DNA from: Desulfovulcanus ferrireducens
GTDB taxonomy: Bacteria > Desulfobacterota > Desulfovibrionia > Desulfovibrionales > Desulfonatronovibrionaceae
Length of the DNA stretch: 64,000 nucleotides
Direction of reading: 5' to 3'
Assembly (NCBI RefSeq): GCF_018704065.1
Contig: NZ_JAGUQP010000002.1
Coordinates: forward strand, 62,001 to 126,000
In this document: positions 23,580 through 32,415 of the stretch, piece after piece
Numbering within the stretch: position 1 is the first letter of the stretch
How the letters are laid out: every line of letters starts with the position of its first letter
Notes under the pieces: model-generated
What the model was told of the DNA's origin: nothing
The model's database searches: none
The model's input: only the letters and a program-made list of their open reading frames with translations
Translations under genes and position numbers: made by a program

Positions 23580-23672
23580 ATGTTAAACATACCTTCCAAC
23601 CACAGCAGCTTTAGCTTTTATTTTTGGTATTTTTATTTTAGCAGGGCCTGTGGTCTGGAGGGAGTGGTTTAA
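23580..23672 (+). CDS. Aromatic-amino-acid leader peptide, 30 aa
   Basis: A 30-codon frame with AGGGAAA eight bases before the ATG and a TAA at 23670-23672. Codons 11-20 read FSFYFWYFYF, so five Phe, three Tyr and one Trp codon are clustered in ten codons, between SNHSS and SRACG. This is the hallmark of an attenuator leader peptide rather than a functional protein. It lies directly upstream of a terminator and of aroA', and its own mRNA contains the pairing segments described for the attenuator at 23591-23731. Stalling on scarcity of Phe, Tyr or Trp would signal to the whole aromatic cluster. The promoter is not certain: TTGACA at 23543-23548 has no good -10 partner and lies close to the ATG. 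Confidence 0.85.
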   Translation: MLNIPSNHSSFSFYFWYFYFSRACGLEGVV

Positions 23673-23731
23673 AGTTTAATAGTCAAACCAAAACCAAAGG
23701 GCCGCAGGCAAAAGCCGGCGGCCCTTTTTTT
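23591..23731 (+). promoter_or_regulatory. Transcription attenuator of the aromatic operon
   Basis: Four segments with trp-leader logic. Segment 1 (23591-23605, ACCTTCCAACCACAG), just before the aromatic codons, can pair with segment 2 (23648-23662, CTGTGGTCTGGAGGG). Segment 2 (23646-23656, GCCTGTGGTCT) can instead form 11 continuous pairs, three of them G-U, with segment 3 (23699-23709, GGGCCGCAGGC). Segment 3 also forms the terminator stem with segment 4 (GCGGCCC, 23718-23724) followed by seven T at 23725-23731. A ribosome stalled on the codons at 23610-23639 would block segment 1 and favour 2:3 antitermination; a ribosome reaching the stop would cover segment 2 and favour termination. Confidence 0.82.
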
Positions 23732-26781: not shown

Positions 26782-28146
26782 ATGAGTAAAAGGAAGGATA
26801 GAGTGATTCATTTAAATGCGCCAAGTTCCAAATCCATATCCCATCGGGCTTTGATGGTGGCAGGACTCGCGGTAGGGGAGTCTTTGATCACCAATTTGCT
26901 TGCCAGCGAGGACATCGCTTGGACCAGGGCCTGCCTTGAAAAGTTGGGAGTTGGTTTTGAGGATACAGAGGATGGGCTTAAGGTAAAAGGGTTGGGCGGC
27001 AAAATAGCTTCAGCGGCGTCAGCGCAAGCATCTACTGAACCGCTTGTTCTAAATGTAGGAGAGTCAGGCACTACCTGTAGGTTACTCACGGCTATTGTGG
27101 CTGCTGGCCAGGGAAGTTTTCAGATCCAGGGTCAGGGAAGGATGCATGAGCGACCCATTGATGCTTTGGAACTGGCTTTGAAAGAACAAGGCGTGACCTT
27201 TTTTTACCTGCAAAATGCCGGATGCCCGCCTTTCATACTGCATACAGGTGGCTTTCGAGGGGGAAAAATCGAGATCAGCATGGAGCAAAGCAGCCAGTTT
27301 TTGTCTGGCCTCCTTCTGGGCGCGAGCATGGCCAAAGAGAGAACAGTGATTACTGTCTCGGGCCGCAAAATTGTTTCCTGGCCCTATGTGGGGCTAACCA
27401 TTAAAGTTATGCAGGAGTTTGGACTGGGCCCGGAAATAGAAATTCTGGAAAACGGGACCTGGCAGACAAAACCATTGGATGAGATTGATGAGATTGTACC
27501 CGGCAGGATCAGATTCATTGTAACTCCCGGACGGTTTTTGGCCAGGACTTTTAATGTTGAAGGCGATTACAGCAATGCATCCTATCTCCTGGCTGCCGGA
27601 GCTCTAAAGGATGAGCCGGTAGTCGTACATAATCTGAATCCTGATTCCTTGCAGGGAGATAAAGAGATTTTAAATATCTTGAGTAAGATGGGTGCAAGGG
27701 TCACCTGGCAAGACGAAGCTGGAGGGGACCCAGCTAGAGTGTTGGTTGAAAAACAGAGATTGCACGGAGTCCAGCTTGATATGGGCAGTTGTCCGGACCT
27801 GGTGCCCACAGTGGCTGTGCTCATGGCCTTGGCTGATGGTCCGAGCAGGATTACTAATGTAGCCCATTTGCGGATCAAGGAAAGTGACAGGTTGCAGGCA
27901 GTAAGTAATGAACTGGCTAGGGTAGGCTGTAAAACAAGGCTACTTGAGGATGGGATAGAGATTTTCCCCCAAAAGATTCCTCAAGGACAAAGTTTTTTCT
28001 TTAAAACCTACAACGATCATCGTTTGGCCATGAGTTTATCCTTGTTCCAGCTTGCTGGCATTGACGTGAACCTGGATAATCCGGCATGCGTGGCCAAATC
28101 CTTTCCTGGCTTCTGGCAGGAATGGGCAAAGGTGGTAAATGAGTAG
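26782..28146 (+). CDS. aroA: 3-phosphoshikimate 1-carboxyvinyltransferase (EPSP synthase)
   Basis: Transfers the enolpyruvyl group of PEP to shikimate-3-phosphate. The 454-residue protein has the substrate-binding start PSSKSISHRALMVAGLA, GESGTTCRLLTAI, the RPIDALE loop and the late LRIKESDRLQA and YNDHRLAMSL motifs. The ATG at 26782 follows TTAGGAA at short spacing; a GTG 21 bases later has a better site (AAGGAAGG) and would trim seven residues. Its 3' end overlaps tyrA by 8 bp, implying coupled translation. Confidence 0.95.
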   Translation: MSKRKDRVIHLNAPSSKSISHRALMVAGLAVGESLITNLLASEDIAWTRACLEKLGVGFEDTEDGLKVKGLGGKIASAASAQASTEPLVLNVGESGTTCRLLTAIVAAGQGSFQIQGQGRMHERPIDALELALKEQGVTFFYLQNAGCPPFILHTGGFRGGKIEISMEQSSQFLSGLLLGASMAKERTVITVSGRKIVSWPYVGLTIKVMQEFGLGPEIEILENGTWQTKPLDEIDEIVPGRIRFIVTPGRFLARTFNVEGDYSNASYLLAAGALKDEPVVVHNLNPDSLQGDKEILNILSKMGARVTWQDEAGGDPARVLVEKQRLHGVQLDMGSCPDLVPTVAVLMALADGPSRITNVAHLRIKESDRLQAVSNELARVGCKTRLLEDGIEIFPQKIPQGQSFFFKTYNDHRLAMSLSLFQLAGIDVNLDNPACVAKSFPGFWQEWAKVVNE

Positions 28147-28918
28147 TCCACTAAAGAATGTAACCATCATTGGCGGACATGGCCAAATGGGGCGTCTTCT
28201 CACGCGAAAGTTCAGAGATGTAGGGGTAGAGGTTAATTCCCTTGATAAACCTTTGTCCGAAGACTCCCTGGCCAGTTGTATTCCTGAGGCCGATGTTGTG
28301 TTTCTGGCCGTGCCTATTACGGCCCTGGATGACGTTTTGCAGAGTTTAAAAATGTTTTTGTCCCCTCCCACTATTTTGGCTGATATCTGTTCCGTTAAGG
28401 TTATCCCCATGACTAAGATGGAAGAAAGTTATGCTGGACCTGTTGTGGGCACGCATCCTCTTTTTGGGCCTGAACCTGCGGTCGATGATCCCCTTAAAGT
28501 GGCATTATGTCCGTCTAGCCGAAAAGATGGGGAAGCTCTAAAAGCGGTACAGGAACTTTTTTCTCGCGGTGGTATGTATACCTTTATCACCAGTGCTCAG
28601 GAACACGATGAGGCCATGGCCTATATTCAGGGTTTAAATTTTATTACTTCCCTATCTTATTTTGCCTGCTTGCCCAAAGATCTGGATATGGACAAGTTTA
28701 TCACTCCTTCGTTTAAACGAAGGATGGATGCGGCCAAAAAGATGCTTACCCAGGACCATGCCCTTTTTGCCAAACTATTTGAGCAAAATCCGTTTAGCGG
28801 TAAAAGTGTGCGCAGGTTCAAATCTTTTCTAGGTCTTTGCGCTGCAGGTGATGTGGAACTTTTGACCCAAAAGGCCCTCTGGTGGTGGCGTGCGTCTAGT
28901 GACAAGGGAGGACCTTAA
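28139..28918 (+). CDS. tyrA: Prephenate dehydrogenase
   Basis: NAD-dependent oxidative decarboxylation of prephenate to 4-hydroxyphenylpyruvate for tyrosine. The 259-residue protein starts TIIGGHGQMGRLLTRKF (Rossmann loop as in E. coli TyrA), with VVGTHPLFGPEPA in the catalytic region and no mutase or ACT domain. It overlaps aroA by 8 bp. The C-terminal tail ends ALWWWRASSDKGGP: three consecutive Trp codons at 28880-28888, just before a terminator that precedes trpE. This tail seems to double as the leader peptide of a trp attenuator (next entry). Confidence 0.93.
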   Translation: MSSPLKNVTIIGGHGQMGRLLTRKFRDVGVEVNSLDKPLSEDSLASCIPEADVVFLAVPITALDDVLQSLKMFLSPPTILADICSVKVIPMTKMEESYAGPVVGTHPLFGPEPAVDDPLKVALCPSSRKDGEALKAVQELFSRGGMYTFITSAQEHDEAMAYIQGLNFITSLSYFACLPKDLDMDKFITPSFKRRMDAAKKMLTQDHALFAKLFEQNPFSGKSVRRFKSFLGLCAAGDVELLTQKALWWWRASSDKGGP

Positions 28919-28977
28919 GGCCCGGGTATAAGTTTAAACATAAAAGGCCGTGTCCTCCCAGAGGATACGGCCTTTTT
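28880..28977 (+). promoter_or_regulatory. trp attenuator using the TyrA C-terminus as leader
   Basis: Three Trp codons (28880-28888) lie 27 bp before the tyrA stop. GGGAGGAC (28906-28913), inside the last tyrA codons, is perfectly complementary to GTCCTCCC (28952-28959), which is the 5' arm and loop of the terminator. The terminator stem is 28942-28957 with 28961-28976 (16 bp, one G-U, 3-nt loop) running into TTTTT. A ribosome stalled at the Trp codons leaves 28906-28913 free to form the antiterminator; a ribosome at the stop codon (28916-28918) would cover it and allow termination before trpE. Confidence 0.75.
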
Positions 28978-29072
28978 AGTATTTAAACTGTGGCGGGTTT
29001 AAAATCTATCGGACTAACAGGGTTTAAAAAGGGGAAACCAAGGGATAAGTTTTGGTAAAAAAGGAGAGGAAA

Positions 29073-30482
29073 ATGATTAAGCTACAACAAAAAGGAAGGT
29101 GTTTACCTGCAGATACTCAGACCCCCGTGTCTTTGTATCTGGACCTGATTGGTCGCAAGCAGGGTATCCTTCTGGAAAGTTCAGAGGTGGATGGTCGGCT
29201 GGGCAAATATAGTCTTCTGGCCTGGGATTTTCGGCTTAGACTTGAGAGTGTTCAGGGTAAGCTGAAAGTAGAGGTTAGCGATCCTCGTCTACAGAGCTTA
29301 AAGGAATTTGAAGGGTTGGATTTTGTTCAGGGGCTAAGGCGGGTTTTACAGGCTATTGAAATCGTTCCTCCGGAAGGTAGTTCTTTTCCGGCCATGACGC
29401 GTTCTTTGTGTGGTTATCTGGGATATGGCCTGGTTGGTCTGTGGGAACCGAAGTTGCGACCCGTGCTTCCACCGTCCGATGCCGAGGCCGTGCTTGTTTT
29501 GCCCGGTAAGGTCTTATTGTTTGAGCACCTTTATCACCATTGTTTTTTGTTGAGTTTAGACGATGATTTGAATTTGCCAAGGCCAAAGAGCCACAGCAAG
29601 GAAAGGGAAAATGTCCTTGGTCCGATACAGACTTATCCTGACCGGGAGACATTCAAACAAAGCGTGGCCGAGGTCAAAGAGTTGATCAGGCAGGGGGAAG
29701 CCATTCAGGTGGTCTTGTCAGTGCGTTTTGCTGCTGATTTTAGTGGTGATCCCTTTCAGGTATACAGGCACTTGCGTCAAATTAATCCCTCTCCATATAC
29801 ATTTTATATGCATCTGGGAGAGATAACCCTCCTTGGTTCTTCTCCGGAACTGATGGTTAAATGCGAAGGCAATAAACTGCAGCTGAGACCCATAGCTGGC
29901 ACCAGGCCCAGAGGCAAAGATAAAGAGGAGGATGAGCGTTTAAGTGAAGATCTGCTCCAGGATGAAAAAGAGCGGGCCGAACACGTTATGCTGGTGGATT
30001 TGGGGCGTAATGACCTGGGGCGTATTGCTCAGCCAGGCAGCGTGGAAGTGGATAAATTTATGCAGGTGGAAAGGTTTTCTCATGTTATGCACCTTACTTC
30101 TTATCTGTCAGCCAACTTAAAGCCGGGTTTGGATGCTCTGGATGTAATTCAAGCCACTTTCCCCGCCGGAACAGTATCTGGCGCGCCAAAGATCAGGGCA
30201 ATGGAAATTATCTCCCAGTTCGAGAATTTGCCTCGCGGTCCTTATGCCGGAGCTATTGGCTGGATAGGTCTGGATAAGGATAAGGTGAATATGGATACTG
30301 GGATTACCATCAGGAGTTTGTGGGTTAGAGACGGTAAAATTTATTGGCAGGCCGGGGCCGGGGTCGTATTTGATTCTGATCCGGATAAGGAATGGCAGGA
30401 ATGCCAGAACAAGGCCCGCGCCATAAACAAAGCCATAACCAGCACAGGAGGCACTGATGATTTTGCTCATAGACAACTTTGA
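29073..30482 (+). CDS. trpE: Anthranilate synthase component I
   Basis: Converts chorismate to anthranilate with ammonia from TrpG. The 469-residue protein has the N-terminal Trp-feedback region (GILLESSEVDGRLGKYS), then the chorismate-binding domain with IQVVLSVRF, RPIAGTRPRG and VSGAPKIRAMEII. The ATG at 29073 follows AAAGGAGAGG; an in-frame TTG at 29052 lacks a site. The 3' end overlaps trpG by 26 bp. It is the first gene after the Trp attenuator, so seven trp genes run from here in the order E-G-D-C-F-B-A. Confidence 0.96.
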   Translation: MIKLQQKGRCLPADTQTPVSLYLDLIGRKQGILLESSEVDGRLGKYSLLAWDFRLRLESVQGKLKVEVSDPRLQSLKEFEGLDFVQGLRRVLQAIEIVPPEGSSFPAMTRSLCGYLGYGLVGLWEPKLRPVLPPSDAEAVLVLPGKVLLFEHLYHHCFLLSLDDDLNLPRPKSHSKERENVLGPIQTYPDRETFKQSVAEVKELIRQGEAIQVVLSVRFAADFSGDPFQVYRHLRQINPSPYTFYMHLGEITLLGSSPELMVKCEGNKLQLRPIAGTRPRGKDKEEDERLSEDLLQDEKERAEHVMLVDLGRNDLGRIAQPGSVEVDKFMQVERFSHVMHLTSYLSANLKPGLDALDVIQATFPAGTVSGAPKIRAMEIISQFENLPRGPYAGAIGWIGLDKDKVNMDTGITIRSLWVRDGKIYWQAGAGVVFDSDPDKEWQECQNKARAINKAITSTGGTDDFAHRQL

Positions 30483-31026: not shown

Positions 31027-31069
31027 TGGTCTAGGGTTGGATGATTGGCTGGATTATTGGTTAAATAGT

Positions 31070-31312
31070 TCAACTTTTGGAGTTAATTTACGAGCACATT
31101 TTCTGGGGGTGCTAACAAAGACTTGGACACATTGTGCATAAAGGGGTTTTTTAGTTAAATGTTATTCAAAGCATTTTCTGTATTCTTGATATCTCTCGCA
31201 ATTTTAGTGGGGTAGTCTCCCTATGCACATTTTTTTTCGCAAACTTCGCCAAGATGTGTTGCCCAACCCGTTTGTAATGCATCTCAGAAAATGCGCTCTC
31301 CAAAAGTGTTGA
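31070..31312. repeat. Degenerate repeat inside the trp operon, copy E
   Basis: The ends TCAACTTTTGGAG and CTCCAAAAGTGTTGA are inverted repeats, with a further inner pair GAGCACATTTTCT / AGAAAATGCGCTC. Inside, AACAAAGACTTGGACAC and TTCGCCAAGATGTGTTGCCC resemble the MITE-like family, so this seems a diverged relative with different ends. It fills the gap between trpG and trpD; no terminator is evident, so the operon is probably not cut. Confidence 0.55.
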
Positions 31313-31425
31313 AATTATAGTGAGTTAGACAACTCCGAAAGTTGAGTTAAATGGTTTATTGGTGGAGTGATGCTGGGATAGTTGACCAATCAACTAATCA
31401 ACCAATAAGCAAAAAGGAGAGGAGA

Positions 31426-32415
31426 ATGAATATTAAAGACATCTTGAACAAGGTTAGTGAGCATAAAGATTTAGAATATACGGAAGCTAAAGAAGTTTTT
31501 GCGGCTTTGTTTGAAGGAGACCTTACACCCGCTCAGAGCGGGGCACTACTCATGGGGCTTAAAAGCAAAGGAGAATGTGCCGATGAACTTCTGGCTGCAG
31601 TTGAGGTTGCACTTGGCAAGGCAAGGCTTGTAAAAGATATTGAAGGCGTGCGTATAGATACTTGCGGTACTGGTGGGGATGGGAAACAGAGCTTTAATTG
31701 TTCTACAGCAGTGGCTTTTTTCCTGGCTGACTTGGGTTATAAAGTAGTTAAACACGGAAACAAGGCCGTTTCCAGTACTTGTGGCAGTGCCGATGTAGTA
31801 GAGGCCCTTGGCCTTCCTTTATTGAAAGATCCAGAGCAGGTAAAAGCAGAGCTTGAACAAAGAAGTTTTGCTTTTATTTTTGCCCCGCATTTTCATCCTG
31901 CCTTTGCCCTCATAGCCCCTATTCGTCAGGAATTGGGTATTCGGACTATCTTTAATCTTATGGGTCCCCTTTTGAATCCAGCCCGGCCTACACATCAGAT
32001 TCTGGGCGTGGCCAGGCCAGAGTATGGACCGCTCATGGCCAAGGTTTTGGCCAGAGGTGATGTGCAAGTTGCTGCTGTGGTTCACGGAGCTGGTGGATTT
32101 GATGAACTTACCCCCTGTGGTCCAGCCCAGGTGAGTTTGGTCCGGGAGGGTAGCGTAAAGGAAATAACTCTTGACCCTCAAGATTACGGTTTTTCCAGGT
32201 GTGAGCCAGCTGATTTGACCTGTGAGAATAAAGAAGAGGCCCTTGCAATGCAAAAAGAGGTTTTAAGCGGTGCAGGGCCAAAGGCTATCCAGGATATGGT
32301 GGCCCTGAATCTTGGACTGGCTTTAAGTCTTTTGCATTCGGACAAGGATTTAAAAGAATGTATGGATATGGCAAGGGATGCTGTGGCCAAAGGGATTAAA
32401 ATGATTGAGAGCTGA
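31426..32415 (+). CDS. trpD: Anthranilate phosphoribosyltransferase
   Basis: Joins anthranilate and PRPP. The 329-residue protein has the PRPP-binding motif DTCGTGGDGKQSFN, KHGNKAVSSTCGSAD and NLMGPLLNPARP. The ATG at 31426 follows AAAGGAGAGGAGA; an upstream ATG at 31351 is in frame, but the extension encodes an unlikely tail beginning MVYWW and lacks a ribosome site. It continues the trp operon after the repeat-containing gap. Confidence 0.96.
   Translation: MNIKDILNKVSEHKDLEYTEAKEVFAALFEGDLTPAQSGALLMGLKSKGECADELLAAVEVALGKARLVKDIEGVRIDTCGTGGDGKQSFNCSTAVAFFLADLGYKVVKHGNKAVSSTCGSADVVEALGLPLLKDPEQVKAELEQRSFAFIFAPHFHPAFALIAPIRQELGIRTIFNLMGPLLNPARPTHQILGVARPEYGPLMAKVLARGDVQVAAVVHGAGGFDELTPCGPAQVSLVREGSVKEITLDPQDYGFSRCEPADLTCENKEEALAMQKEVLSGAGPKAIQDMVALNLGLALSLLHSDKDLKECMDMARDAVAKGIKMIES

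Follow-up and report, generated by a model that had tools for sequence, protein, structure and literature searches.

A candidate tryptophan attenuator between tyrA and trpE with the C-terminus of TyrA as its leader peptide

In textbook amino-acid attenuators, the level of an amino acid is read through a tiny, disposable peptide encoded beside the promoter. In the trpL type, represented by the trp leader of E. coli, the antiterminator pairs a segment located just past the control codons, which a ribosome that has reached the stop codon masks (PMC1183508), and peTrpL of S. meliloti is presented as another leader of this type in the passages of PMC7298713 that deal with it. A different arrangement is found at E. 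coli rph-pyrE, where, according to the relevant passages of PMC2784333 (citing Bonekamp et al. 1984), the end of the upstream enzyme gene serves as leader and translation is coupled to transcription at an intergenic terminator. For Desulfovibrio vulgaris, the sections of PMC1173090 on this species report a supraoperon (aroA'-aroB'-pheA-aroF-tyrA-trp) with a putative attenuator listed before aroA', and neither its attenuation section nor the Table 7 passages mention an attenuator between tyrA and trpE. Descriptions of an amino-acid attenuator with control codons at the end of an enzyme, or of an attenuator at the tyrA-trpE junction, were searched for in the open-access literature and none was found. 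Ribosome-mediated trp attenuation is classical and an enzyme gene acting as leader has its precedent in rph-pyrE, while control codons at the end of an enzyme appear to be new.

The 64,000-nt stretch of Desulfovulcanus ferrireducens DNA analyzed here (the window) carries a cluster encoding a DeoC-type aldolase (aroA'), DHQ synthase II (aroB'), pheA, aroA, tyrA (the fifth gene), trpE, trpG and further trp genes, sharing with the D. vulgaris supraoperon, as presented in the sections cited above, both the gene order and an attenuator before aroA' (Table 1). By direct reading, TyrA ends in ALWWWRASSDKGGP (also written KALWWWRASSDKGGP) followed by the stop, and 27 nt separate the end of the Trp codons from the TAA. 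The sequence-only reading had reported three Trp codons (WWW) at this distance from the stop, complementarity of GGGAGGAC to GTCCTCCC, and a terminator at 28942-28976 before trpE, all of which could be read directly from the letters. The terminator stem is formed by 28942-28957 and 28961-28976, with a CCA loop and a T after the stem, and the ATG of trpE is preceded by the RBS-like AGGAGAGG. Four TTTAAA-containing repeats lie around and after the terminator (28931-29030); they were not seen in the available sequence of the sister species (L017).

Table 1. Features of the tyrA-trpE junction and of the first attenuator of the cluster, in window coordinates
Feature	Position	Strand	Basis
Leader peptide MLNIPSNHSSFSFYFWYFYFSRACGLEGVV, Phe/Tyr-rich (FSFYFWYFYF), of the first attenuator of the cluster	23580..23672	+	sequence, fold
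Terminator of the first, Phe/Tyr-type attenuator	23699..23731	+	sequence, fold
tyrA, prephenate dehydrogenase, 259 aa; putative leader ORF of the attenuator	28139..28918	+	ORF; Pfam PDH_N 1.5e-17; PDB match 2pv7 7e-23
Possible segment 1, AAGGCCCTCT, able to pair with the segment 2 region	28871..28880	+	window fold
Three tandem Trp codons TGGTGGTGG, W248-W250; putative control codons	28880..28888	+	sequence; WWW in 74/76 attenuator loci
Segment 2, candidate antiterminator half GGGAGGAC, within the last tyrA codons	28906..28913	+	sequence and comparative tests
tyrA stop TAA; a ribosome sitting here would cover segment 2	28916..28918	+	sequence, geometry
Intrinsic terminator (stem of 16 bp closed by a 3-nt loop, then a T run)	28942..28977	+	-26.2 kcal/mol, z -8.6
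Segment 3 core GTCCTCCC, terminator 5' arm and loop	28952..28959	+	sequence
trpE, anthranilate synthase I, first gene past the terminator	29073..30482	+	ORF; Pfam Chorismate_bind 9.4e-95

It is very likely that transcription is attenuated at this junction by a ribosome-mediated, tryptophan-responsive mechanism in which the C-terminus of full-length TyrA acts as leader peptide. It shares with the trpL type the tandem Trp codons in a translated ORF, the terminator before trpE and an antiterminator formed by segments 2 and 3, whose pairing would be mutually exclusive with the terminator. It differs from that type in its leader, which forms the last part of an enzyme of 259 aa whose translation begins far upstream, instead of a short promoter-proximal ORF, and in that the attenuator stands after the fifth gene of the cluster, has a possible hairpin between segments 1 and 2 that showed no sign of conservation, and has no Rfam match: the only match of Rfam covariance models at gathering score in the whole window, with the Trp leader family included, was a tRNA. 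With rph-pyrE it has in common a leader ORF that is a full-length upstream enzyme gene with the attenuator after it; however, rph-pyrE, as described in the passages cited, senses pyrimidine (UTP) through the coupling of polymerase and ribosome, whereas the tyrA end has amino-acid control codons and an antiterminator.

In the window, the terminator fold was far more stable than its shuffles (-26.2 vs. -6.9 ± 2.2 kcal/mol, z -8.6), and the alternative hairpin 28903-28959, in which GGGAGGAC pairs with GTCCTCCC, reached -19.9 kcal/mol (z -2.3 vs. shuffles). The 8-bp match score of segment 2 was attained by just 0.5% of shuffled segments. The sequence TGGTGGTGG was found twice in the 64 kb (both strands), against 0.5 expected, and three Trp codons by themselves are therefore weak evidence. 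On sequence grounds, the observation is secured by the comparative tests across relatives.

For these tests, TyrA loci were collected from some 130 further genomes belonging to this order, and 137 of the loci were sorted by their tail. A locus was classified as an attenuator when no more than 60 nt separated the tyrA stop from a terminator of -15 kcal/mol or lower that was followed by trpE; some loci of genera g24, g38, g42, g49, g50 and g51, in which trpE lies 60-900 nt downstream but no terminator was called, were counted as negatives. The pattern was recovered in 76 loci (in two of which the contig ends before trpE) from 25 genera, covering all six families sampled. The tail was WWW in 74 of them, the exceptions being WWF (L031) and LWW (L081).

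In one representative per genus, the stretch following WWW paired more strongly with the arm and loop of its own terminator (mean -22.9 kcal/mol) than with arms and loops from other genera (mean -18.4 kcal/mol; z -7.6, 0 of 20000 permutations). This preference was located at W+9..W+33 (nt after the last Trp codon), for which the own versus cross-genus comparison gave a mean z of -8.9 over 40 resamplings with one locus per genus, none of 3000 permutations being as good in any of the 40, while adjacent intervals before and after it gave z values of -0.15, -0.36 and +0.95. Joint changes of segment 2 and terminator were found in L034 (GGGAGGATG/CATCCTCCC), L035 (GGGAAGGA/TCCTTCCC), L101 (GGGACGCGGC/GCCGCGTCCC) and L112 (GGGGTGCGGC/GCCGCACCCC). 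This own-versus-cross test argues against reading the G-rich end of tyrA as a Shine-Dalgarno site that pairs with the C-rich loop of the terminator only because of its base composition. Its GGGAGG is indeed RBS-like, but in the window no ATG, GTG or TTG follows at RBS spacing, and segment 2 of g8 and of part of g52 reads GGGACGCGG or GGGGTGCGGC, which are not RBS-like and to which the terminator has changed to match, leaving this explanation a next to negligible probability.

Attenuation by a ribosome requires that segment 2 match its own terminator and be spaced from the Trp codons. The best contiguous helix began 11-22 nt past the last Trp codon in 76 of 76 loci (mean 16.3, sd 2.2), compared with a mean of 26 (sd 17) in the shuffled control, whereas relative to the stop the position of segment 2 ranged from -26 to +11 (sd 8.0). 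In g8, g41, g48 and most of g52 the stop is reached early, at or ahead of segment 2, whose distance from WWW is unchanged. Within g52 the stop lies before segment 2 in some species (L111-L113, L115-L118) and after it in others (L110, L114); whichever side it lies on, the distance between WWW and segment 2 stays at 16-22 nt. The front edge of a standard ribosome footprint lies some 12 nt downstream of the A-site codon's first base. With such footprints, segment 2 would be free when the ribosome waits at Trp and, in 74 of 76 loci, would be masked when it stands at the stop. A protector hairpin of segments 1 and 2 was possible in the window fold, without covariation over 25 genera (z -1.1).

The same covariation and placement bear on a plainer account, namely an ordinary terminator ending an aro-tyrA operon, with trpE under its own promoter and with WWW and the G-rich end incidental. 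The terminator is strong, and the long tyrA-trpE gaps of some relatives (200-870 nt) could house promoters. A plain terminator, however, would work without an upstream partner, whereas here segment 2 covaries with the terminator and takes its position from the Trp codons; in addition, a consensus scan of the plus strand between terminator and trpE in the window found no sigma-70-like promoter site. We regard this account as highly improbable. The ribosome-stalling attenuator proposed in the sequence-only reading is supported: WWW, terminator and trpE are kept together across the order, the pairing is genus-specific, and the spacing is fixed from the Trp codons.

The comparison showed the parts, how they are spaced and that their complementarity is genus-specific; from this we infer the following dynamics. 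When charged tRNA-Trp is plentiful, the ribosome trailing RNA polymerase would clear WWW, get to the tyrA stop and mask segment 2 (28906-28913), so that 28942-28976 would fold and transcription would end before trpE. When charged tRNA-Trp is scarce, the ribosome would stall at WWW, its front edge reaching to about 28898, and leave segment 2 free to pair with 28952-28959, which would block the terminator and allow trpE to be transcribed. The shared aromatic operon would thereby acquire a separate, Trp-specific gate. Such a system could inform on how well the coupling of ribosome and polymerase holds far from the promoter, and on how a branched pathway parts Trp from Phe/Tyr control in one transcript.

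The earlier expectation that WWW would be tied to a downstream trpE held only in part: the triplet was kept in 19 of 41 TyrA without trpE downstream, but segment 2 and terminator were gone there, and trpE, located elsewhere, had its own W-rich leader. In genus g12, TyrA mostly keeps WWW and both segment 2 and terminator are absent; in L045 (g14) WWW (now RLWW), segment 2 and terminator have all been lost, so that in L045 and g12 linkage, segment 2 and terminator disappeared together. Several genera related to g12, and g12 itself, have trpE at another place, behind a small leader ORF of its own (WWW or WW) and a terminator, e.g. MFHPSSRSTFRTMFWWWRVSDVKGGVRPVIF in L171, MSYSFLSQPVRFWWWRVADAKGGVRPM in L183 and MNVFSNTISNSFKGWWWRIQLRGGDVRA in L174. 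Stand-alone W-rich leaders of trpL type before trpE were seen in L169-L191, those of g58, g36, g37 and g40 being less typical. Lineages with trpE abutting or overlapping tyrA lacked a terminator and mostly had AWW or RWW. In L121-L124, L126, L146 and L147 (g54, g20, g16) the tyrA-trpE gap is 2 nt, without terminator, and the triplet is down to AWW or TWW; the Trp gate has apparently been lost in these near-overlap loci. The association of WWW with the attenuator was significant in a genus-level Fisher test that ignores phylogeny (p 1.5e-6), and a tree-aware test gave about 2.6 independent pairs in agreement and 0.1 in disagreement, too few changes to rely on.

Since the middle Trp (W249) was invariant in 57 of 57 aligned TyrA and WWW persists in some TyrA without trpE, WWW alone proves little, and the motif is partly protein-driven. 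In the AlphaFold model, a confidently predicted helix (239-250) closes with W248-W250, and residues 251-259, which encode segment 2, are predicted to be disordered (block mean pLDDT 55), so the tail past W250 looks dispensable for the fold. The invariant W249 and the place of the Trps at the helix end, together with the retention of WWW without an attenuator in g12, would also fit a triplet kept just for TyrA structure, the terminator being switched by general translation of the tyrA end or by a protein, with no specificity for Trp; a general translation-coupled gate is known at rph-pyrE, in the passages cited above. Against this, many lineages lacking the attenuator show free variation of the Trps on either side (RWF, KWF, AWW, RWL), the spacing of segment 2 is locked to WWW, W-rich stand-alone leaders precede trpE located elsewhere, and the TyrA tails read from other classes of the phylum have no Trp triplet. 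One Trp looks structural and the flanking ones freer without an attenuator, and a purely structural triplet is very unlikely. In the Trp-responsive attenuator, the sensor would be the tail of a working enzyme deep in an operon, one protein end being selected for structure, codon identity and RNA pairing together.

The TyrA tail resembles a stand-alone trpL leader, a likeness that the sequence-only reading had not noted. Leaders of the latter kind, in the order and phylum, likewise have a W-rich tail followed by a segment 2 (in the order, at 14-17 nt from the Trp codons in most cases), a terminator and trpE, but each is a short separate ORF and not part of an enzyme. Stand-alone W-rich leaders also precede trpE in other classes of the phylum (L196, L198, L200-L203), and the triplet is absent from the TyrA tails read from those classes and from three other deltaproteobacteria; the leader kind therefore predates the tail. 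The simplest account is that a trpL-like ORF was probably fused to tyrA in the ancestry of the order, and convergence under RNA constraint is a possible alternative. We consider it moderately likely that the fusion to the upstream enzyme took place early in the order, making one ORF both catalyst and sensor for the next gene, and that it was kept in at least 25 genera, re-split several times and left a fossil WWW in some TyrA. The TrpE tree, which did not settle the root of the order and placed the outside genome L195 within it, was set aside for polarising fused and stand-alone states within the order; in this tree, g6 and g40 are nested among fused or linked relatives, from which we infer a later re-splitting in both, and the g12 group probably re-split later as well. 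L195 (G529, of another class) has a TrpE of the order's type, 54% identical to that of the window, and nests within the order in the TrpE tree, so that a horizontal transfer of the trp genes with a leader is probable. Segment 2 past the stop, loss of linkage and re-split leaders are natural replicates that can show how attenuators arise.

At the level of the whole cluster, the sequence-only reading had taken the tyrA-trpE junction for a second, Trp-specific control, and this holds, a Phe/Tyr-rich leader with a terminator lying before the first gene. This region (23580-23731, upstream of aroA') and the tyrA-trpE junction would form two attenuators in series. In Desulfovibrio hydrothermalis, expression of trpE, trpG and trpD was lower at 10 than at 0.1 MPa, and tyrA, aroA, pheA and the two preceding genes were absent from the list for that comparison (PMC4162548). 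This would fit gating at the tyrA-trpE junction, although it is not proof of it. Further downstream in the window, the interval of about 400 nt between trpG and trpD (31027-31426) holds no clear gene and, in a rough check, was apparently longer than in three relatives.
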